From: Allorhodopirellula heiligendammensis
GTDB taxonomy: Bacteria > Planctomycetota > Planctomycetia > Pirellulales > Pirellulaceae
NCBI RefSeq assembly: GCF_007860105.1
Contig: NZ_SJPU01000002.1
Span: 2,261,882 to 2,325,881, forward strand
Direction of reading: 5' to 3'
DNA: 64,000 nucleotides
The notes beneath the pieces are model-generated. The model was not told the DNA's origin and searched no databases. It saw nothing but the letters and a program-made list of their open reading frames with translations. Both the position numbers and the translations under genes were made by a program. Of the stretch, positions 20,913 to 31,720 are shown one piece after another; position 1 is the first letter of the stretch; the number at the start of each line of letters is the position of its first letter.

Positions 20913-22248
20913 GGCTCATCCAGCGAAAGCGTACTCTGTTTGATGGAGCGAGTAGAGCGTGAGCTCAAAATACTCACGGTCGCGGATACCGTAGGATTGC
21001 CTTTGGACAGTCTTGATTTTGTTGCTGGTGCCCTCCATCGGTCCGGATGATATCCGGTGCGCAAAATAGTTCATCAGTCCCTCTTCATGCCGCATCAACG
21101 TCTTGGCCATTGTTTTGCGGAGGGGCCAGTCCGGTCGCTATCGCTCGCTCACACCAAGACCGCAGGAACAACTGGGCCGGCCAGCGAAACGTATACCTCC
21201 AAAACATTCGCAGCTCCTCCTTGAGATAATACGCCGTGGCTAGCGGCTCATTGAGTTCCAAGGCCGCGGCCAGGTGTGCTTCCTCGTTGCGATCTGCACG
21301 TAGGTTCTCGGGATTCTTCAGCAGCAGCCATCGACTCCCCTTGAGCACCGACTTTTCAGCGGCGGTCGCTTTCTGGAAGAGTTGCCGACGGAACGTCGTC
21401 AACTTTTCGTTCATTAATTTCACGACATGGAAGCGGTCAAACACGATATCGGCGTTAGGAAGGTTCCCACGCACCGCAAGGATGTAGGCGCTGGACATGT
21501 CCATCGCAACCGCTTCGATGCGATGCCGCCGACGGCCCAGTCGTTTCCAAAAAGGTACCAGCGAATCGGCCGATTTGCCTTCTCCCACGAAGATAATCGC
21601 ACCGCTGTCCAGGTCCATCACCAGCGTCACGTAGCGGTGACCTTTGCCAATGCAGATCTCATCGATGGCGATTCGCCGTACGTCTTTCAGGGAAGGATTG
21701 GCAAATCGCCGCTGGAGGTCCGTCTTTTTGATTTCTTTGATCACATCCCAGGTAACGCCAAGCAGATCAGCAACGTCCTTTCTCGTCATGCTTCGAGTTA
21801 ACTGCAAAGCGTATTTCCCCCAGCCCTTGGTGTAGCTTCGGCGGGCGGCGGCAAATTCAATTTGGATTTGGCGAACGGCCCCGCAATCATTGCACTGCAC
21901 GCGAGGCGAGGAGGCGACGACTACGGTCCGTTTTAGGCCGATCGGAGAAGCTCGAAATTCTCGTTGCCTGAGCTCTCGACGGATCACGTTCCGGCTATCG
22001 CACGATGGACAGTAAATCGCCTTTTCGCTTGGCTGGACATAAAATCGTGTGACGCCTTTGGAGAACTCAATCCGCGTCTGCTGGAAGCCACGGATGCCAA
22101 AGGACTGATACAACAAGGTGGTGGACATGTGCATTTTTCAAAGAAGACGTGAGAAATCTCCTCGAAAGATCGCATGTCCACGCTTTTTCTTCCATACACC
22201 ACATTCTCGATCGCCCCCAGCCTCGCGCACCCGTCAGTTGGATGAGCC
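20913..22248 (-). mobile_element. ISL3-family insertion sequence, degenerate
   Basis: The perfect 10-bp inverted repeat GGCTCATCCA (20913-20922) and TGGATGAGCC (22239-22248) flanks the transposase gene. It gives a 1.34-kb element, a normal ISL3 size, and the left repeat overlaps the transposase stop codon. The 8 bp on either side are not identical (GAAATCAT and TACTTTCT), so target duplication is not preserved or the true ends lie slightly outside. Confidence 0.6.
20916..22134 (-). pseudogene. ISL3-family transposase, frameshifted
   Basis: The first part (22134-21126) carries the N-terminal zinc-binding region (CPSCDSRNV and CNDCGAV), the helix-turn-helix TRKDVADLLGVTWDVIKEI and DDE-domain landmarks: IAIDEICIGKG, TLVMDLDSGAIIFVGEG, VAMDMSSAY and NADIVFDRFHVVKLMNE. 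The frame then breaks. The remaining domain, including SGPMEGTSNKIKTVQRQSYGIRD with the conserved glutamate of the triad, is in another frame (20916-21119). The shift maps to a run of four C at 21122-21125 (G on the plus strand), where three would keep the frame. Together the parts make about 400 residues, the usual family length. It is probably inactive, although slippage at the C run cannot be excluded. Confidence 0.85.
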
Positions 22249-22314
22249 TACTTTCTCGACATCCTTGTCACGTTGGGAGTTCGCTGCCATCCCTTCAAAA
22301 TGCACTGTTCGTGG

Positions 22315-23400
22315 CTATTCCTTCGCCCAGTTGAACTTTTGCTTAAGGCCATTTAGATGTTGATAGCCGATGATTTTTTCATGCTGCAATCGTCCCACCA
22401 GAATCCCCGGAGCAATCCTAAGTTCTTCCGCCAACGCCAGCACGGCACTAATGGACTTGGTTGTTTTTAGAGCAGCGTCGAACTCACGCGGAATGAGAAG
22501 CTCGCGAGCGAATTTATTGGCGGCAGCCTCTCGCGGGTCATCTGAGTACCTCACATCAATGTAAGTTTGCTTCTTACTGTCACTAAGAATATGCCCGGCT
22601 TCGTGAAACAACGTGAACCAGAAAATGTCATTCATTTTGCCTCGAAGATTGACCGCAATCATCGCTTTGTGCGGGGATAGCCATCGTGCCGCTCCGTTGA
22701 TTTTCCCACCCTTGATTTCCGGCACCAAGCACAAGGCAACACCTGATGCTGCGAATGCTTCCTTCATCTTGGGAATAAAAACGCCTGGTGCTTCCATTGT
22801 CAGCTCACGAATCTCGGAAACAGCCGCTGCAAATGCTCGTCTATTGAAGTGTTGGGCTTCGATCGATTCGGACTCTTTTTCGGCGATCCTAAGCCAAGTT
22901 GCCAGCCGGCAGTCCAGACACGACGCATCTTGTGACTTCCGAAAAGAAAACTGACCTTCGCACCAACCGTCCCTCCATGCTCCAACAGTTGCCACCCGAA
23001 AGAAGCTCAGCGTTTGTTCGAGAAGAGAGATCTTGTCCTGCGTAGCTTCGAGGTACCCGCGTTTGACTAGTTCGTTGGTGGGAACCAGCTTCAGCCACTC
23101 AATATCTTTCGCAAGCTCTTCGCGAGCTTGAAGGCGAGCCAACTGCTCTTGATACTCCGCTTCCAAGTTGTTCCAGATTCTGGCGGGAACGTTGGTTACA
23201 CGTTCCAGCAGCATTGCCGTTTGCTGCGTTAACGGGGCCTTGCCCTTGATGATTTGATTGAGGGTCTTGGTCGCCAGGCCTGTTCGCTCGGCGAGTTCTC
23301 GTTGGTCAATCCCCAGTTCGTCGATCGTTTCCCGGAGCGTTGCTCCAGGTGGGACGGCAAAGTCCGGTTCGTAGCGGTATCGTTTTGCGTTGGTTGCCAT
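22315..23400 (-). CDS. HigA-type antitoxin fused to an ImmA/IrrE-type zinc metalloprotease
   Basis: Residues 15-70 form an XRE/HigA helix-turn-helix (GATLRETIDELGIDQRELAER, then TLNQIIKGKAPLTQQTA), the DNA-binding antitoxin and autorepressor part. The remaining 290 residues end with an ImmA/IrrE-type domain carrying the zinc protease motif HEAGH (266-270) after WFTLF. In this family the protease cleaves or regulates repressors in response to DNA or other stress. The full length (361) is typical of fused HigA/ImmA proteins (COG3093 plus COG2856). The gene follows the toxin by 58 bp in the toxin-first order of higBA operons. It lies in the accessory island between an IS element and a broken regulator gene. 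Confidence 0.85.
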   Translation of the reverse strand: MATNAKRYRYEPDFAVPPGATLRETIDELGIDQRELAERTGLATKTLNQIIKGKAPLTQQTAMLLERVTNVPARIWNNLEAEYQEQLARLQAREELAKDIEWLKLVPTNELVKRGYLEATQDKISLLEQTLSFFRVATVGAWRDGWCEGQFSFRKSQDASCLDCRLATWLRIAEKESESIEAQHFNRRAFAAAVSEIRELTMEAPGVFIPKMKEAFAASGVALCLVPEIKGGKINGAARWLSPHKAMIAVNLRGKMNDIFWFTLFHEAGHILSDSKKQTYIDVRYSDDPREAAANKFARELLIPREFDAALKTTKSISAVLALAEELRIAPGILVGRLQHEKIIGYQHLNGLKQKFNWAKE

Positions 23401-24558: not shown

Positions 24559-26463
24559 TCAACCGCCGGCAATCATGATTTCGGTATCGTTGAGAAGCGT
24601 GCCCGTCTCGAACTGCACGTTTTTGAGCGCGACCATGTACTCGGTCACTGCGAGATAATAACGGACCTGTGCTTCACTGAGGCGTCGCTGGGTATCGAGC
24701 AGCTCGACCAGACTGATCGGCAGCCCCGCTTCGCGGTTGGCTTCGAGTGTATCGAGCGCATCCTTCGCTGCGAGATATCGATTTAAACTCGTTTCTGCCA
24801 GGGCATAGGAGCGGTCGGTTTCGGCGATAACACTTAGCAGATCATGGATAATCTGGCGCTCCTGCTCGCGCAGTAATGCTTGGTCCCTCGCGATCTGCAG
24901 CTTTGCGTGCTGGACGGCCGCGTGTGCTTGTCGAAATCCAACAGGCATTCGGAATTCCAGGCCACCCTGATACTCTTGAAATCGTGTGTCGCCGATCTCT
25001 TCAAACGCGGATCCCGTCCCAGCGAGATCGGATCCCAATCCACGAATTCGATATGTCGATGTCAGGTCGAGTGTGGGCAGTAGGAAGTTCTTTGCAGCAA
25101 GCAATTCCATTTCCCGCCGCTTGACGAGCAGTCGCTGTTCTTGCAACTCAGCTCTCATCCGGATGGCTTGAGCTGACAGGGAATCGGTATCAAAAATCAC
25201 CGGGGCAGTGGTGGGTTCATCAACGGGCCGCAGCAGCACTCCATCGCTAACAGGCAGTCCGATCAGCAATCGTAAACGACGTTCGCTCGCCAGGACGCCG
25301 CCAACCCCTGAGAACGTACCGCCGGAAGTCGCGTTGTAAATTTGCGTCCGCTGCACCAATTTCCCAGCGACTGCATCTTGGTATTCGCCTTGAAATCGGT
25401 AGTACTGCTCTCGGGCGAGCGCTTCTGCAGAGCCACCACGGCGATTCGAGGTTTTCTGGGCATCATAGCTGCGCCAAGTGAGGCGACTTCGTTCGAGAGC
25501 CTCGGCCCGGGCGTCGACATCGCGATAAGCAAACGCAAGATCCCAGTAGGCGTTGGCCACGTTGCTAATGTAGTTTCGGGTATTACGGCGGAACACCGCG
25601 ACCGACATGTCGTTGTTGGTTTTAGCAATCAACACGCCATTGTAGACGCCTGGCAGGGCAGCCGCCCCGGCAATGCGGTTGAACGTAAGTCCACCTCCAC
25701 GCAACAACGGTTGACGGATCTCAGCTTGAAACTGAGACTGCCACGCGCTTGGAACGAGGTTTCCCGTCGCGTTGTTCGCGTCGTAATCCGTCACACTGCG
25801 AAGCGCCAACTCAGCCCCCGTGGCCGTTCGCTTGGAGGTTTGAAAAACGTAGTCGTGTAGATCTTGCTGGAAGGCGTTGGCCCCCCCGCCGAAGAATCGG
25901 TTATTGAACTGGCGATCGTTGTTCTGCCATTGTCCCATCGCATACAGCTGAGCGTCGAACGCGGAGAGAGCCGCCTCGATACCGAGCTGCGGGTTGGTTT
26001 GCACCAGAGGTAAGGTCTGCTGACTAGCGACTTGCTCGGGAGCTCGCAGCACGGTGGCGTTGAGATCTCGAAGCACCTCCGAATTGGACAGCGCGATTAA
26101 GATCGTTTCACGCAGCGTCAAGTCGCGATAGGCTGCATTTTCGAGTGAAGTGGCATCTCGGATTGTGATCGGGGGCAGCGGTGCGGTCGTCAGCGCAATC
26201 GCTTCGGCGGCTTGCCCAGGAGGAGCCCCAGCGTCAACATTGGCCATGATCGCGTCGACGCAGGCGGTATCATTGCCAACCGTTTCAGGCAAGCTCTTGA
26301 CGGCGCGACACCCCAACAGCCCCGCGAAGGCCGATAATAAAGCACCGGTGACAAGGGACCATAGGACAATGGAGAACAGCGGCCAGCGATGCCGCGAATC
26401 ACGCAGTCGACGGGCAGACTCGACTCCATCACCGGCCAGCATGACCGGGGGTGAATCGGACAT
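24559..26463 (-). CDS. TolC-like outer-membrane efflux lipoprotein
   Basis: The ATG at 26463 is chosen because AGGGGA lies eight bases upstream. The 634-residue protein then has a hydrophobic segment and lipobox (FAGLLGC, Cys52) after a basic stretch. The mature part has the TolC/NodT layout: two tandem repeats of long helices with beta segments, for example DLTLRETILIALSNSEVLRD, QAEIRQPLLRGGG and ANAYWDLAFAYRDVDARAEA in the first half, and EYQGGLEFRMPVGFRQAHAAVQHAKLQI with LVELLDTQRRLSEAQVRYY in the second. TolC trimers form the outer-membrane/periplasm tunnel of type I and efflux systems. The gene is divergent from the adaptor-protease operon, which suggests it is its exit channel. Confidence 0.9.
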   Translation of the reverse strand: MSDSPPVMLAGDGVESARRLRDSRHRWPLFSIVLWSLVTGALLSAFAGLLGCRAVKSLPETVGNDTACVDAIMANVDAGAPPGQAAEAIALTTAPLPPITIRDATSLENAAYRDLTLRETILIALSNSEVLRDLNATVLRAPEQVASQQTLPLVQTNPQLGIEAALSAFDAQLYAMGQWQNNDRQFNNRFFGGGANAFQQDLHDYVFQTSKRTATGAELALRSVTDYDANNATGNLVPSAWQSQFQAEIRQPLLRGGGLTFNRIAGAAALPGVYNGVLIAKTNNDMSVAVFRRNTRNYISNVANAYWDLAFAYRDVDARAEALERSRLTWRSYDAQKTSNRRGGSAEALAREQYYRFQGEYQDAVAGKLVQRTQIYNATSGGTFSGVGGVLASERRLRLLIGLPVSDGVLLRPVDEPTTAPVIFDTDSLSAQAIRMRAELQEQRLLVKRREMELLAAKNFLLPTLDLTSTYRIRGLGSDLAGTGSAFEEIGDTRFQEYQGGLEFRMPVGFRQAHAAVQHAKLQIARDQALLREQERQIIHDLLSVIAETDRSYALAETSLNRYLAAKDALDTLEANREAGLPISLVELLDTQRRLSEAQVRYYLAVTEYMVALKNVQFETGTLLNDTEIMIAGG

Positions 26464-26660
26464 CAGTCCGTCCCCTAGCGATTCCCGTAACCCTGTTGCT
26501 CTGCCAGGATTCGGTTGGCCGGTCGATTTCGATGATGCGATCAAAATGCTGCGTTATAGAGTCGATGTCCGACAGATGTCACAATCCGTACACCCGTCTT
26601 TATTCGACGATTCCCTACGACTGCATCCAGTGAAATCGTTACGAAACGACGCCTCACTGT

Positions 26661-26677
26661 GTTTCACACCGTGAAAC
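26661..26677. promoter_or_regulatory. Perfect 17-bp inverted repeat between the divergent export genes
   Basis: GTTTCAC and GTGAAAC flank an ACC centre, 48 bp upstream of the first adaptor start and in the 261-bp spacer shared with the TolC-like gene. Size and symmetry fit a dimeric repressor or activator site acting on both genes. No regulator gene is adjacent. Confidence 0.45.
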
Positions 26678-26724
26678 TCGAACGCGTGTACAAGATTCAG
26701 ACCCCTACCAGTTAAGATACGTCG

Positions 26725-28176
26725 ATGAGTCACCCGCCCGACCCCAACGCCGATCGTCTCAGTGAACGTTTCGAACTCGCGTGGCTACGCGGTACCGACG
26801 CTTTAGCGGATCCCATCGTTCGCGCGCAAAGTCTGTGTGGCGAAATCTCGCGGGTGGTCGCAGCCGATCGGGTTAGCTTTGTAGTCAAGCATGGTCCTAC
26901 GTCCCAAGTCGTTGCCACGTCGACGACTCCAGCGATCGATCCGCGCTCCTCGGAGGCTGGCTGGTTGAGACAACTCGCCGACGAGGTGTGCCGCACAGGC
27001 ACCGACGTTCAGGTGGAACGACAGTCGATAGAGATGCCTTCGGACCTGACGGATGCGACCGAGACCTTGGCGATCCCAGTCACCGACCGTGACTCGATTG
27101 ACAACATCGAGGCGGCAATCGTACTGCAACGCTACACATCCAAACCAAACTCACTCGCCGCATCACTGGCCAGCACGCGGCGCGAGATCGACGTGGCCGC
27201 GACGGAGGTTGCGTCCGCATTGCGGCAACGGGCTGCCAAATCGGAGCGGCGAGCCACGGCATGGTGGCGACACGCCCCCAATTGGAAGCGTCTCGCCGTG
27301 GTCGCTGGGATCGGCATTGGTTTCGCATTGCTACTCAGCATTCCTGTTCCGTTCCGACTGTCTGTTGAGGGGCGACTGGAGCCAGCCAAGTCGTTTGGCG
27401 TCTTCGCACCCGCCGCCGGTACGCTCGTAGAAATGCACGCGAGTGACGGTGATGTCGTTGCCCAAGGTGCCGCCTTAGCAGAACTTCGTAGTGTCGAGAT
27501 CGACCTCCAGCAAGAACGTCTCGTCGGCGAACTCGCTGCTGCGGAAACTGAGCTCGCCACATTGCGATTGCGGCAATCCGACTCGGCCGCCGCTGAGTCT
27601 ACCCATGCCTCATCAATGGGTCATTCACAGGATGCAGCCCAAAGCCGATCGCGCCAGATGGTACTTCGTTCCCGCATTCATTCTTTGCAAGCACAAGCCG
27701 ACCTCATGAGTGAGGTCCGAGAATCCTTGACGATTCGAGCGTCAATCGATGGTCGCATCATTCTCCGCGACGAACAATCCGAGCTGGTTGGCCAAACGAT
27801 CAGCCAGAGCCAGTGGTTGATGCAGCTCGCTGATTTAACTGCTGGATATGCTGCCATCATCGATCTACCTGAAAACGACGACGCTTACCTACGCCGGGTG
27901 CTCAATACCGAGCAGGCTAACCCGATCAGCGACTTGCGGTTACTGGCATCTCCCGATGTCCAGTTCAGTTGCAGGGTTGGCCGCGTTGCCGATACTGTCC
28001 AGCTGAATGAACGAGGCAAAGCCGTGATTGAAGTCATCATTCCCATCGATGTCCCTCTACCGGATGATGTGCACGTCGGAGCCACCGTGGTTGGGACGAT
28101 TGAAGTGGGCCGTCGCTCGTTAGGCTTCATCTGGTTTCGCCCCTTCATTGAATTTCTCCGGAGTTACGGATGGTAA
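26725..28176 (+). CDS. Membrane-fusion (HlyD-like) adaptor with N-terminal GAF-like extension
   Basis: The 483-residue protein has a cytoplasmic N-terminal region of about 190 residues with GAF-like character (PIVRAQSLCGEISRVVAADRVSFVVK, DATETLAIPVTDRDSI). A single transmembrane helix (VVAGIGIGFALLLSIPVPF, about 193-212) follows. The periplasmic part is adaptor-like: EGRLEPAKSFGVFAPAAGTLVE and DGDVVAQGAALAELRS form a biotinyl/lipoyl half, then come coiled-coil helices and IRASIDGRIILRDEQSELVGQ as the second half. The end resembles adaptor beta domains. Adaptors of this type link an inner-membrane component to TolC. The stop overlaps the next gene (ATGGTAA), so translation is coupled. Confidence 0.85.
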   Translation: MSHPPDPNADRLSERFELAWLRGTDALADPIVRAQSLCGEISRVVAADRVSFVVKHGPTSQVVATSTTPAIDPRSSEAGWLRQLADEVCRTGTDVQVERQSIEMPSDLTDATETLAIPVTDRDSIDNIEAAIVLQRYTSKPNSLAASLASTRREIDVAATEVASALRQRAAKSERRATAWWRHAPNWKRLAVVAGIGIGFALLLSIPVPFRLSVEGRLEPAKSFGVFAPAAGTLVEMHASDGDVVAQGAALAELRSVEIDLQQERLVGELAAAETELATLRLRQSDSAAAESTHASSMGHSQDAAQSRSRQMVLRSRIHSLQAQADLMSEVRESLTIRASIDGRIILRDEQSELVGQTISQSQWLMQLADLTAGYAAIIDLPENDDAYLRRVLNTEQANPISDLRLLASPDVQFSCRVGRVADTVQLNERGKAVIEVIIPIDVPLPDDVHVGATVVGTIEVGRRSLGFIWFRPFIEFLRSYGW

Positions 28177-29399
28177 ACATCAATCTAAAACGGGAATTCG
28201 TCAAGATATTCGATTCTGCGTCAATGGCGTTACGACGTATGAGCGATAAGCGCGGCTCGTGGTCTCTTCTCCCCCAAACCCGCGTTCGTATTCCAACGGC
28301 GAATCAAATGCGTGTTACGCAGCGAATTCAAGCGTGCTTGTTCCTGCTTCCACTCCTCTTCATTCACGTTCAAGCAGTCGCTCAGACTCCAGATTCCGCT
28401 GGCAGCATCGGCGGTCTCGTCGTTGTTCTGATGGACGAAGCGTCCATTGCTGCGGCGATCGAAGGATCAGTTAGTGAAGTTGTTGTTGGGGAGGGAGAGA
28501 CCGTCAGTGCCGGCGACGTCATCATCCAACTTGATGATCGTAAGGCACAACTGGAGCAATCTTTGGCTCAGCAGGCTGCTGAGATCGCAACTCATCGACA
28601 GGTGGAGACAAGTGCAGTGGACGCCGCCAAGGTGGCTGTCGCCGAGCAGGAGCAAACGATCGCCGAGCATGAAATCCGGAGTGAACTTAATCGCCGCCGC
28701 GCCGCGAATGAACTCAAAATTCAAGCCGCCGAGAAAGCAGAGTTGGTCGCGAAGAATGAGTGGCAGCGGGCTGAATCCGCTCGCCAGAACTTTGTCGACG
28801 CTGTGTCTGAGTCTGAAATCGAAGGGCTACAACTCGCCTACGAGCGCTGCCAACTGGAGACTCGAGAAGCCATCTTTCAACTTGAGATGGCGGCGATCGA
28901 CGTGCGGCTCGACCAAGCCATGGGCAAAACCCTGCAGTGGCAACTCGAGTCCGCCCGTGTGAGCCTGCACGCTGCGAAAGCGGCAAACGAAGTGCGAGCA
29001 CTCGAAGCAAAAATCCAAGGTCTCAAATTGGACTTGGCACGCGTGGTCAGTGACGACCACCATTTGCAATCGCCCATCGACGGTACGGTTGTCTCGATCT
29101 CCGCGGGCGTGGGAGACTGGGTCCGCAGCGGACAGGTTATCGCGAGAATCATTGGTCGTGAACGCCTTCGGGCCGAAGGCTACGTGACGTCCGAACATGC
29201 CCACAGGCTGCGAAACGCGAACAGTGTGGTCGTCAGGGTCACCAACAGTGACGGCACCACAATCCAACGCGATGGTGTCCAGCGTTTCGTGAGCCCCGAG
29301 CTGGATGCCGTGACCGGGGAGGTCCGCATCTGGATTGAATTTGATAACCGCGACGGCAAAATCTATCCTGGATCGAAAGCCTCGGTGGAGGCTCGCTGA
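28170..29399 (+). CDS. Second membrane-fusion (HlyD-like) periplasmic adaptor
   Basis: The ORF overlaps the previous gene by seven bases (ATGGTAA). A better secretion start is the ATG at 28308, which gives a signal peptide (ACLFLLPLLFIHVQAVAQ) and about 363 residues, so the start is ambiguous. The mature protein is a soluble adaptor: lipoyl-like AAIEGSVSEVVVGEGETVSAG, then a long coiled coil (about 120 residues rich in Ala, Glu, Gln and Arg), DHHLQSPIDGTVVSISAGVGDWV as the second lipoyl half, and a beta-barrel end (RLRAEGYVTSEHAHRL). Two different adaptors in one operon is unusual and suggests a hetero-oligomeric or alternating adaptor ring. Confidence 0.85.
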   Translation: MVNINLKREFVKIFDSASMALRRMSDKRGSWSLLPQTRVRIPTANQMRVTQRIQACLFLLPLLFIHVQAVAQTPDSAGSIGGLVVVLMDEASIAAAIEGSVSEVVVGEGETVSAGDVIIQLDDRKAQLEQSLAQQAAEIATHRQVETSAVDAAKVAVAEQEQTIAEHEIRSELNRRRAANELKIQAAEKAELVAKNEWQRAESARQNFVDAVSESEIEGLQLAYERCQLETREAIFQLEMAAIDVRLDQAMGKTLQWQLESARVSLHAAKAANEVRALEAKIQGLKLDLARVVSDDHHLQSPIDGTVVSISAGVGDWVRSGQVIARIIGRERLRAEGYVTSEHAHRLRNANSVVVRVTNSDGTTIQRDGVQRFVSPELDAVTGEVRIWIEFDNRDGKIYPGSKASVEAR

Positions 29400-31720
29400 T
29401 GTCCGTCCCCCGTTTGCAGTTACGCCCCGATCTCATCATGCGGCGAATCTCCCTGCGTGATCGCTGTGTGTGGGTCCTGAAAGACCCGCTGTCGAGGCGA
29501 CTTCATTTCTTTGAGGAGGCCGAATTTGCGATCTTGCGTCGCCTGCGAAGCAGCGTCGCATTTGCCAACTTAGCAGCGTATTACCGCGATCGCCTGCCGC
29601 CAGCCGTCCTGGCTCAATTTCTCTCGTCTGCCACCAGGGCTGGCATTCTCGTCACAACCGATGGCGTCGCAGCATCGCCGGCATGGCGACCCGCGCCACC
29701 ACCGACCCGAACCGCCTGGTGGAAAAACCCGCTGGTGATTCGATTGCCAGGCATCACCCCAGACCGCCATGCACTGTTCCAGCTGTCGGCAGGTCTTTTT
29801 ACCCCCAGCGGACGCCCGCGCCGGGGCAGACCAGCGCAGCTCCATCGAGCGACAAGGGGCAGTGATGCAGCCACCGCTCGCCTCGCACCCGAACCACAAC
29901 AGATCGATGACCTCCGCTCTGTAGCAGCAGTACCTGACACATTGCGAACTGAGCGTGGAACGACGGTCGCCATCATGACAGTCGTGGCAGCGATCATCTT
30001 TCTCGCTGCCCTGAGCATCATGCTGCGGCAACAGGACTTCATCGATGACTTAGCGAACGCAGGTTCGCATTTGGCGGCGCCGTTGGCGAAGTCAACCAGC
30101 CCGTGGGCGACCGGGCCCCTGGCTAGCACACTGCTAGTGTTTGCTTCCGCAATTGCCGTCACAAAAATATTTCACGAACTCGCCCACGCGTGGGTCTGCC
30201 ACAGGCTCGGTGGCCGCTGCCGCGAGATCGGCGTCCTGCTGTTATTTGGAATCCCGTGCTTGTACTGCGATGTCAGTGACGCATGGCTGATGCCGCGACG
30301 CCGAGATCGAATCCTCGTGTCCGCTGCAGGGGTAATCGCCGAGTGGATGGTAGCCGCTGTTGCCGCGCTCGTGTGGGCGGCAACTCGGCCGGGATTGCTG
30401 CATGATGTCTCCACGCTGATCGTCGTGGTGGCGTCCGTCAATACGTTCTTGATCAATGCCAACCCGCTACTGCGGTATGACGGCTACTACATCCTTTCGG
30501 ACGCCACTGGCGTACCGAATCTTGCTGACGAAGCAAACCTTGCGATCCGCCGCACCTGGTCAAACTGGTGCGGTACTCGGAGCGAAAGTCCTGCATCCGC
30601 ATCGCCCCAGAAGTGGTTGGTTGCCTATGGTATCGCCAGTAACGCCTACCGCCTGTTCGTATTAGGCGTGATCGGTTGGGCGGTATTCTCGTTCCTGAAG
30701 GTTTCGATTGGCTACGGTGCCGCATTACCGATCGTACTCGTACTCGGGTTTACAGTATTGCGGCAGCGGTGGGCCAACCTCGTGATGAGTGGACCACGCG
30801 CGCACCAGTCTCACGACGCCCGTTGGGGAGGCGGCATTCTATCGGTCGCAATCCTGCTCGGCATACTCGTGTTGACCTTGGTCCCGCTACCCCATAGCGT
30901 GCGGGTTGGCAGTCTGATTCGTCCGCTTGGTGAGCGACCAATCTATCTCTCGACTGCGGGAATCTTGCTCCCGCAGGAAACGGAAACTCAGGTCCGCCTG
31001 GATGACTGGCGGTTACGAATAAAGGAGTTGGCGTCGCGGGGTCGCATCGCAGAACTGGAGTCAGAGTTGGCTGCCAGTCGCGTTGATCGCATCGACCACC
31101 CTTCACTATCGTTGATCCAACCGATCCTCGCCGATCAGATCGCCAGCGAGCAGGAGAATCACCGCACGCTGGTCAATCGTCTTGATCAGCTCTCCATCTC
31201 CATAGCTCCCCAGGAAAAACTTTTTGCGCCGCCGCTACGGCACGTCTCTCGACAAGAACAAATCGCAGGCCGCTGGGGTTGGACCGGTACGCCACTCCAA
31301 CCAGCCAACGTCGGTGCGACGCTGGGCGAGGGCACGCTCCTCGGTCGTGTCGGCAGTCCTGATCGCCGTGTCGCCTCACTCTATGTCCCCGAACATACCA
31401 TCGACGAAGTCCGGATCGGGCAATCAGTCATATTCGGATATGGCGGCTTACCCCGGGGATCGATTCGCGGGCGAGTTGCATCGATCTCAGCAGACCCCGT
31501 CGATAGTGCCCCGGAAGAAGTCTTAGCCGCAGGTTGGCTCGGCAGTGATCCGATTGACCGCGATAGCACGATGGTCGGTACGGTTCACTATGAGGTCATC
31601 GTCGCGCTGGAGAGCGTGAGCTCCAAGACCACCCTTCCGGCACGACTCGTCACACCAGCTCGAATCCGGTTCCCTGCGAGTTCATTATGGTCGCGCTGGC
31701 GACGATGGTTTCAGCAGTAA
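29399..31720 (+). CDS. Membrane zinc metalloprotease (M50-like) with C-terminal adaptor-like domain
   Basis: The gene overlaps the upstream stop by one base (TGATG). Residues 1-90 resemble a PqqD-like domain (LKDPLSRRLHFFEEAEFAILRRL). A membrane region follows with the zinc motif HELAH (259-263) inside VTKIFHELAHAW and the partner motif NANPLLRYDGYYILSD (353-368, D361). Both are characteristic of the site-2-protease-like 'putative peptide zinc metalloprotease' (YydH-like) group. Several transmembrane helices flank these. The C-terminal part (about 530-740) is periplasmic and adaptor-like, with coiled-coil helices, GATLGEGTLLGRVGS and a beta-domain end. It probably cleaves or escorts a peptide across the inner membrane and docks on the adaptor/TolC tunnel. 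No ATPase is encoded nearby. Confidence 0.85.
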   Translation: MSVPRLQLRPDLIMRRISLRDRCVWVLKDPLSRRLHFFEEAEFAILRRLRSSVAFANLAAYYRDRLPPAVLAQFLSSATRAGILVTTDGVAASPAWRPAPPPTRTAWWKNPLVIRLPGITPDRHALFQLSAGLFTPSGRPRRGRPAQLHRATRGSDAATARLAPEPQQIDDLRSVAAVPDTLRTERGTTVAIMTVVAAIIFLAALSIMLRQQDFIDDLANAGSHLAAPLAKSTSPWATGPLASTLLVFASAIAVTKIFHELAHAWVCHRLGGRCREIGVLLLFGIPCLYCDVSDAWLMPRRRDRILVSAAGVIAEWMVAAVAALVWAATRPGLLHDVSTLIVVVASVNTFLINANPLLRYDGYYILSDATGVPNLADEANLAIRRTWSNWCGTRSESPASASPQKWLVAYGIASNAYRLFVLGVIGWAVFSFLKVSIGYGAALPIVLVLGFTVLRQRWANLVMSGPRAHQSHDARWGGGILSVAILLGILVLTLVPLPHSVRVGSLIRPLGERPIYLSTAGILLPQETETQVRLDDWRLRIKELASRGRIAELESELAASRVDRIDHPSLSLIQPILADQIASEQENHRTLVNRLDQLSISIAPQEKLFAPPLRHVSRQEQIAGRWGWTGTPLQPANVGATLGEGTLLGRVGSPDRRVASLYVPEHTIDEVRIGQSVIFGYGGLPRGSIRGRVASISADPVDSAPEEVLAAGWLGSDPIDRDSTMVGTVHYEVIVALESVSSKTTLPARLVTPARIRFPASSLWSRWRRWFQQ

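Follow-up and report, generated by a model that had tools for sequence, protein, structure and literature searches.

A TolC/HlyD/M50 gene set of Allorhodopirellula heiligendammensis as a probable ABC-less exporter of LEPR-leader giant proteins

Type I secretion systems (T1SS) such as HlyB-HlyD-TolC and LapBCE feature a TolC-like channel, HlyD adaptors, and giant, repetitive, adhesin-like cargo. The locus described here lies in a stretch of 64,000 nucleotides (nt; C2:2261882-2325881, hereafter the window) of the 7.2 Mb genome of the planctomycete Allorhodopirellula heiligendammensis. It consists of four genes, all with open reading frames (ORFs): a TolC-like outer-membrane factor (OMF), an adaptor with a GAF-like cytoplasmic part (P0002), a HlyD/biotin-lipoyl adaptor (P0003), and P0004—a fusion of a PqqD-like part, an M50 site-2-type protease, and a HlyD-type tail. 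The family resembles type I systems in the channel, the adaptors, and a predicted giant cargo, and differs from them in that no ATP-binding cassette (ABC) transporter was found, the cargo tag is N-terminal, and an M50 protease with an adaptor tail stands in its place. By family names alone, the locus would pass for an efflux-like cluster. As judged by comparison with relatives, it is probably a one-step trans-envelope exporter of giant proteins carrying an N-terminal leader of the LEPR type, working without an ABC motor.

The closest described module was reported by Kamneva, Poudel, and Ward in 2015 (PMC4452313). The available part of that paper presents a conserved locus in which M50, HlyD, and GAF/HlyD proteins, in some cases also an OEP protein, accompany a secondary SecA_DEAD protein, proposes SecA for ATP hydrolysis, the M50 protein as a membrane pore, and GAF as a sensor, and leaves the biological role unknown. 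The window locus is alike in its M50/HlyD, HlyD/biotin-lipoyl, and GAF/HlyD proteins, in the OEP protein found in some members, and in the distribution over Planctomycetes, Proteobacteria, and Nitrospirae: P0004 and P0003 correspond to the M50 protein with HlyD similarity and to the HlyD/biotin-lipoyl protein, and P0002 corresponds to the GAF protein with a HlyD part by way of a profile match. It differs in having no adjoining SecA gene; the secondary SecA of this genome is encoded on the same contig at a distance of about 1.3 Mb (C2:977641-979914), and the locus is therefore not filed as a full member of that module. The same part of the paper names no cargo or targeting signal and describes no SecA-less clade with LEPR or DUF4347 giants. 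An earlier sequence-only reading of the window had proposed the protease as the inner-membrane gate and knew of no functional description of such a set; the idea is not new, since a pore role for M50 and a sensor role for GAF had been put forward in 2015.

The nearest named relatives of the M50 core are the daptide and YydH/LiaK metalloproteases. The best NCBIfam match of P0004 is daptide_HExxH (NF041824) at 144.6 bits against a cut-off of 300, followed by YydH/LiaK (NF058609) at 34.1 bits against 225; unlike these proteases, the family carries fused PqqD-like and adaptor parts and has giant neighbours in relatives. The literature search found no paper combining PqqD, HlyD, and SecA, and no export route for LEPR or DUF4347 proteins, with most subscription papers and all of bioRxiv outside its scope; the searched text of PMC3482391 mentions neither M50 nor T1SS. 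The S-layer system of PMC13274458 was considered as a parallel and rejected: the available part of the paper describes a type I system with an ABC gene.

The association with giant proteins is seen within the order of the host as well as outside it. In eight planctomycete loci, an ORF of more than 2500 amino acids (aa) lies just downstream of M50 and extends past the end of the stretch. These ORFs contain almost no Cys, and most have a high content of Asp, Gly, Thr, and Ala; these and other ORFs of the loci start with a basic stretch followed by a motif such as LETRRVLNADG or LEPRVVLTATA. NCBI holds a short model for starts of this type, which we take to be NF012209 (LEPR-XLL, LEPR-8K). By a strict scan, a LEPR-leader ORF occurs within about 10 kb at 17 of 36 M50 loci of the order and at none of 40 random regions (Fisher 2e-7, uncorrected for relatedness). 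These controls, 40 of 44 drawn regions, are similar in size and come from 24 genomes, among them 20 that also supplied M50 loci; two further loci (L062, L082) show the motif by a loose scan and stand outside the count. Length as such discriminates less, ORFs of at least 1200 aa being only somewhat commoner at M50 loci (17/36) than at controls (12/40).

Outside the phylum, as an independent test, a tblastn search of plasmids with the M50 protein of contig C8, encoded at the second M50 locus of the genome, gave 81 records; 13 plasmid regions and one Escherichia coli chromosome region were opened. Of the 13 plasmid regions, 11 have a giant ORF immediately upstream of the set. It is annotated as LEPR-XLL in Pontibrevibacter, Pseudosulfitobacter, and Thalassospira, annotated otherwise in Methylosinus, Kosakonia, Burkholderia anthina, Niveispirillum, and E. 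coli, and without annotation in Sinorhizobium, Rhodobacteraceae M382, and Pseudohalocynthiibacter. In Azospirillum B510, the M50 gene stands alone with a LEPR protein about 10 kb further on, and the Rhizobium johnstonii plasmid record starts at the set itself. All five plasmid giants whose starts were read carry the motif: LESRQLFDGAA (E. coli), LEPRMLFDGA (Kosakonia), MEPRVLLSADP, LEPRFLLSADP, and LEPRVLLNADV.

A scan with an M50 alignment, using one genome per species, gave at least 594 candidates, of which 568 were confirmed and the best 80 used. At these 80 loci, the motif is present in 14 of 17 adjacent ORFs of at least 1000 aa with the start in view, or in 14 of 15 without two shadow frames—one of 1213 aa overlapping the M50 gene (L152) and one of 2321 aa in a region tiled by minus-strand ORFs of higher GC content at third codon positions (L177). 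Start regions were retrieved for another 24 giants truncated by the flank: 23 have the motif, L241 being counted in the frame that carries it, and the remaining start was out of reach. Combined, 37 of the 38 readable starts of adjacent giants bear the motif, and the likely cargo is a giant LEPR-leader protein instead of the small precursor peptide assumed by the sequence-only reading. A wider count, covering non-overlapping ORFs of at least 1000 aa with the start in view on either strand and at any distance, finds it in 16 of 32. The largest annotated giant neighbour has about 12,900 aa.

The leader has a length of about 35 aa and a median net charge of +5 and ends in the consensus ALEPR[MI][MV][FL]D[AG]A. 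The search pattern fixed the L/M, E, and R/K positions; the A or G that follows the D/N/S position in 54 of 58 aligned leaders was not demanded by it (59 entries, 58 lined up, with L069 and L070 as mis-picked ORFs). Peak hydropathy has a median of 0.31, compared with 2.47 for the TolC proteins of the operons, and because the leader is missing the hydrophobic core that TolC and HlyD proteins of the same operons possess, it is unlikely to be a Sec signal. The C-termini of nine cargo proteins gave no match to the T1SS C-terminal target model at E ≤ 0.01, and models of adhesin type match one cargo (L142) below their cut-offs.

LEPR-XLL (NF012209) and DUF4347 (PF14252), both N-terminal parts of giants beside these operons, have been named as domains only. 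DUF4347 lies near the start of the giants in L142 (3830-17209), L193, L226, L229, and L201. Its H, HG, and YGC positions are invariant in 10 of 10 aligned sequences, and the YGC cysteine is the sole cysteine of the 4459-aa E. coli giant. These positions recall the dyad of caspases, and self-cleavage of the giants is a possibility; from Pfam comes only a weak indication of C80, in 2 of the 10. Against the Protein Data Bank (PDB), the DUF4347 profile matches five designed barrels, taken as chance, and chain G of 9qpe, a DUF4347 protein. As 9QPE belongs to work on type VI effector loading, to go by the available part of PMC13323088, DUF4347 is not exclusive to the proposed export route. The Burkholderia thailandensis DUF4347 protein BTH_II1339 is among the proteins raised in stationary phase in the part of PMC12322963 at hand, and at least one cargo-type DUF4347 protein is thus made.

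M50 and DUF4347 also coincide within a single genus. In Pseudomonas, to which G148 belongs, 72 of 149 genomes have a strong M50 match (E < 1e-80, a limit chosen after inspection of the table), 70 have DUF4347, 69 have both, and 76 have neither; the two coincide in 69 of the 73 genomes having either, uncorrected for relatedness. The sole DUF4347-only genome holds a 296-aa frame with fragments of both, and of the three M50-only genomes, the one inspected (G159, L239) has a LEPR giant start.

The gene set itself is broadly conserved. The best 80 loci span Alpha-, Beta-, and Gammaproteobacteria, desulfobacterial lineages, Nitrospira, and one genome labelled Bdellovibrionota, and OMF, HlyD, GAF-HlyD, and M50 are all present in 51 of the 64 loci that have at least 5 kb upstream of M50. 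As judged by small home-made profiles, none of the 80 has an ABC or resistance-nodulation-division (RND) gene inside the operon span; a same-strand ABC match lies within 9 kb in eight of them, and SecA and DUF3467 within 9 kb in none. Only a handful of proteins, from plasmids and the window, went into the seed profiles, with two sequences for ABC and a single incomplete one for RND, and the labels are the analyst's own. Conservation of the four parts together, and no ABC or RND component conserved within the set, is what the sequence-only reading had expected of relatives, and both hold in this sample. Within the order, the M50 fusion is matched in 146 of 147 genomes (145 at E < 1e-40). To go by sequence comparison, the set recurs across Planctomycetes, Proteobacteria, and Nitrospira, and this recurrence is reported here as new, together with the likely LEPR cargo, the coincidence of M50 with DUF4347 in one genus, and the SecA count in genomes with a SecA-less operon. 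In E. coli (L139, L142, L146), a five-gene set of giant, TolC, two adaptors, and M50 occurs on plasmids and on one chromosome, with no SecA or ABC gene annotated within it; 24 of 5426 genomes carry the M50 gene, and 21 of its 25 places are on plasmids.

The planctomycete sample comprises the C8 locus and 40 mapped regions that were picked from the best matches and from matches near SecA, not at random. Type A sets consist of GAF-HlyD, HlyD, and M50, in many cases joined by DUF3467; six of them (L067-L072) adjoin a gene for a secondary SecA, and the C8 locus (L004) is a type A set without SecA. Type B sets have a TolC-like gene near GAF-HlyD, HlyD, and M50 and no SecA. The OMF gene is divergent in 11 of 15 OMF matches and upstream on the same strand in the other four. 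The window locus belongs to type B. Its nearest relatives are L047 and L048 of genus g7, which also keep the four genes together, with an OMF 57% identical and the same genes alongside, and in a quick tree its M50 groups with these two (Shimodaira-Hasegawa-like approximate likelihood ratio test 97) inside the planctomycete clade. Within this broad, apparently ABC-less export family, the copy in the window is a divergent representative. A small DUF3467 protein, possibly a chaperone or cargo adaptor, accompanies the GAF-HlyD and M50 genes in type A and several alphaproteobacterial sets (L004:9403-9804, L067, L134, L137, L141, L151).

In the window, the three plus-strand genes form an operon (26725-31720) with overlaps of 7 nt and then 1 nt, divergent from the OMF gene, for which an internal ATG start at 26463 is a possible alternative. 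ORFs, Pfam, and overlaps confirm the four coupled genes named by the sequence-only reading (Table 1). Pfam HlyD_3 matches P0002 at 3e-8 and P0003 at 2e-16; in P0004, M50 (1.4e-5) and HlyD_3 (7e-4) are each slightly below the curated cut-off. HlyD adaptor and TolC channel are present by Pfam as in a type I system; the nine ORFs neighbouring the set contain no dedicated ABC transporter and no other transporter family at E ≤ 1e-5, one of them being without any family. The set in the window is one of OMF, HlyD, GAF-HlyD, and PqqD/M50/HlyD without ABC.

The GAF-like part of P0002 is borne out by a profile match: its N-terminal 170 residues, taken alone, match longer relatives in the region of the second GAF (hhalign 96.9%, E 1.6e-10), compared with 0.7% for the first-GAF region and 0.3% for the adaptor region as controls. 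This second-GAF region is a Pfam GAF in one relative, and the structure model of P0002 has a GAF-like topology as read by eye. The fusion character of P0004 likewise stands. Of 17 aligned family members, 9 have a Pfam PqqD match at E ≤ 0.1, and the N-terminus of P0004 is modelled as strand-strand-strand-helix-helix-helix at low confidence (low predicted local distance difference test score). The HExxH and NPxxRxDGY positions are conserved in 17 diverse relatives from several phyla, and the H, E, and H of the zinc motif, intact in P0004, are invariant in these 17 and in 51 aligned members. A PDB sequence search with P0004 alone gave no match at E ≤ 0.1; the family profile matches mainly adaptors and biotin-carrier domains, and weakly the site-2 proteases 3b4r (9e-5) and RseP (0.005).

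Table 1. Features of the export locus, in window positions.
Feature	Position	Strand	Remarks
TolC-like outer-membrane factor (OMF)	24559-26544	-	661 aa from TTG; Pfam OEP 1.7e-20
Inverted repeat GTTTCAC-ACC-GTGAAAC	26661-26677		7-bp arms, 3-nt spacer, between divergent units
Adaptor P0002: GAF-like cytoplasmic part, transmembrane segment, HlyD	26725-28176	+	483 aa
Adaptor P0003: HlyD/biotin-lipoyl, periplasmic	28170-29399	+	409 aa
P0004: fusion of PqqD-like part, M50 site-2-type protease, HlyD tail	29399-31720	+	773 aa
PqqD-like N-terminal part of P0004	29399-29653	+	bounds approximate; candidate receptor for the leader
HELAH zinc-binding motif of M50 in P0004	30173-30187	+	
HlyD-type adaptor tail of P0004	30887-31720	+	approximate bounds

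Gene content, conservation, cargo association, leader motif, and intact protease motif are observed features of this family. From them we infer transport, leader binding, cleavage, and an energy source. The PqqD-like domain of the M50 fusion would bind the basic N-terminal LEPR leader of the giant cargo; the M50 membrane helices would make up or organise the gate in the inner membrane, with the leader being cut by the protease. The adaptor tail and the two HlyD adaptors would join the gate to the TolC-like channel, through which the chain would pass outward, and the GAF part of one adaptor would gate or sense from the cytoplasm. It is an even call whether the family as a whole amounts to a distinct, widespread secretion system of diderm bacteria, in which the PqqD-like part reads ALEPRxxFDA on giant Cys-poor proteins, M50 takes the place of the ABC transporter and serves as both gate and leader peptidase, adaptors and TolC export the chain, and secondary SecA powers one branch and a second, broad one works without a dedicated ATPase. 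The proposed cargo and tag rest on strong comparative evidence; the SecA branch has been known since 2015.

Of the sequence-only reading's claim that the locus has no engine, the part on the window set stands, in that ABC and RND are lacking there; sibling loci hold a secondary SecA in the operon, and the own genome holds one elsewhere. The secondary SecA of A. heiligendammensis is matched in 146 of 147 genomes of the order, 140 of them below 1e-180, which makes canonical SecA alone unlikely as the source of these matches. A SecA-like gene lies inside the operon in seven plasmid loci (L134-L137, L141, L148, and L140, where the copy is split into two ORFs), and the encoded proteins are 39-46% identical to the own secondary SecA over 552-641 aa. 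In two of the alphaproteobacterial operons, a SapC-family gene stands between M50 and SecA (annotated at L136:16215-17036; an ORF of similar size at L148:17215-18036). Secondary SecA is likely the pushing ATPase in Planctomycetes and some Alphaproteobacteria, encoded in trans in the present case. Among 38 whole genomes of unstated completeness with a SecA-less operon, 36 have one full SecA and two, both Nitrospira, have a second full SecA_DEAD match; other second SecA matches are partial and of about 32 bits or less, six of them above the family cut-off. The SecA-less branch thus appears to be mostly without secondary SecA, and in this proteobacterial and Nitrospira clade canonical SecA, proton-motive force, or folding outside would have to supply the work.

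Several findings weigh against the proposed export of LEPR giants. There is no LEPR ORF in the window and none within about 10 kb of L047 and L048, its nearest relatives; in the sampled planctomycetes, LEPR neighbours are limited to 9 of 23 genera, and five SecA loci (L074-L078) have no adjoining M50 set. The window M50 is the longest branch (1.57) of the quick tree, its placement being flagged as unsure by the tool, and with such a branch its role may have changed. Neither PqqD in P0004 nor GAF in P0002 gives a Pfam match, and fold searches of two models returned periplasmic adaptors throughout the 50 matches listed for each. On the cargo side, a 2956-aa ORF beside an M50 set (L169:4438-13305) begins with a Sec-like signal and no LEPR leader, and the C-terminal part of the E. 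coli cargo (L142) is similar to adhesins of type I systems, with scores below cut-off (BapA/LapF model 98.9 of 180 bits, T1SS_rpt_143 33 of 66 bits).

As no LEPR gene lies in the window, the cargo of this locus would have to be encoded in trans. The genome has six LEPR-type N-termini elsewhere, in ORFs of about 6560, 1878, 1821, 1007, 611, and 524 aa; two of the matches reach the NF012209 cut-off, and the short model also weakly matches 7 of 14 controls, which again counts against the proposal. The window copy would use such cargo, with the C8 locus as an alternative user of the same ORFs. In the regions L257:285-20000 and L258:1092-5104, the ORF of about 6560 aa adjoins genes with type IV pilin- or pseudopilin-like N-termini, as read by eye. 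At L256:5109-13815, the 1007-aa ORF overlaps by 26 nt a 1902-aa ORF with tandem DPNATIE-like repeats.

Three other explanations were weighed. PqqD-like domains bind the leaders of ribosomally synthesized and post-translationally modified peptides, and this, together with the ranking of daptide and YydH/LiaK as best NCBIfam matches, fits a maturation and export route in which the fusion is a protease of daptide or epipeptide type that cuts small PqqD-bound precursors and hands them to the adaptors; with both scores under their cut-offs and giant proteins so often adjoining relatives of the fusion, this is improbable. About as improbable is decay or re-purposing of the window copy, for instance for small-molecule efflux or envelope signalling, in a family that otherwise exports giants. 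The long branch, the missing LEPR neighbour, and the shorter GAF adaptor (483 aa, compared with about 640-730 aa in the other mapped planctomycete loci) would fit it; the four open frames, the retained catalytic motifs, and the four genes kept together in genus g7 (L047, L048) argue against it.

Slightly less probable still, and unlikely as the mover of the cargo, is a conventional ABC type I exporter encoded elsewhere, to which the set would be only an accessory in retention, processing, or sensing. RTX-type repeats in the L151 cargo and, weakly, in the L134 cargo point that way, as do the BapA/LapF-like part of the E. coli cargo and a Vibrio LEPR giant with RTX parts mentioned in the available part of PMC10868602. 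Such an accessory role is at odds with the set's own OMF and adaptors, the lack of ABC and RND inside the best 80 operon spans, a common signal that is N-terminal, and the lack of a T1SS target match at E ≤ 0.01 in nine cargo C-termini. Export of LEPR giants through the M50 set remains the preferred reading; the observations of the sequence-only reading are confirmed, and its interpretation is partly supported.

On its OMF side, the locus is flanked by an ISL3-family transposase and a helix-turn-helix/M78 (ImmA-like) gene (window 21085-23400), a possible mobile boundary, and on the opposite side by an Hsp70 gene and a ClpB-type gene. The inverted repeat between the divergent units, which the sequence-only reading suggested could control all four genes, is a possible operator and a weak one taken alone: arms of 7 bp are reached in 19 of 500 shuffles. 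The TGTTTCAC half-site is also present, in a different arrangement, in the intergenic regions of L047 and L048.

Many bacteria have giant proteins that start with LEPR or DUF4347. If the link proposed here holds, it would name their exporter and their address tag, and would show an intramembrane protease in a new role, that of a secretion gate. It would also pose an energetic puzzle, namely chains of thousands of residues crossing two membranes without a dedicated ATPase. The operon occurs in genera open to genetics, where leader and M50 gene are predicted to be needed for display of the giant.

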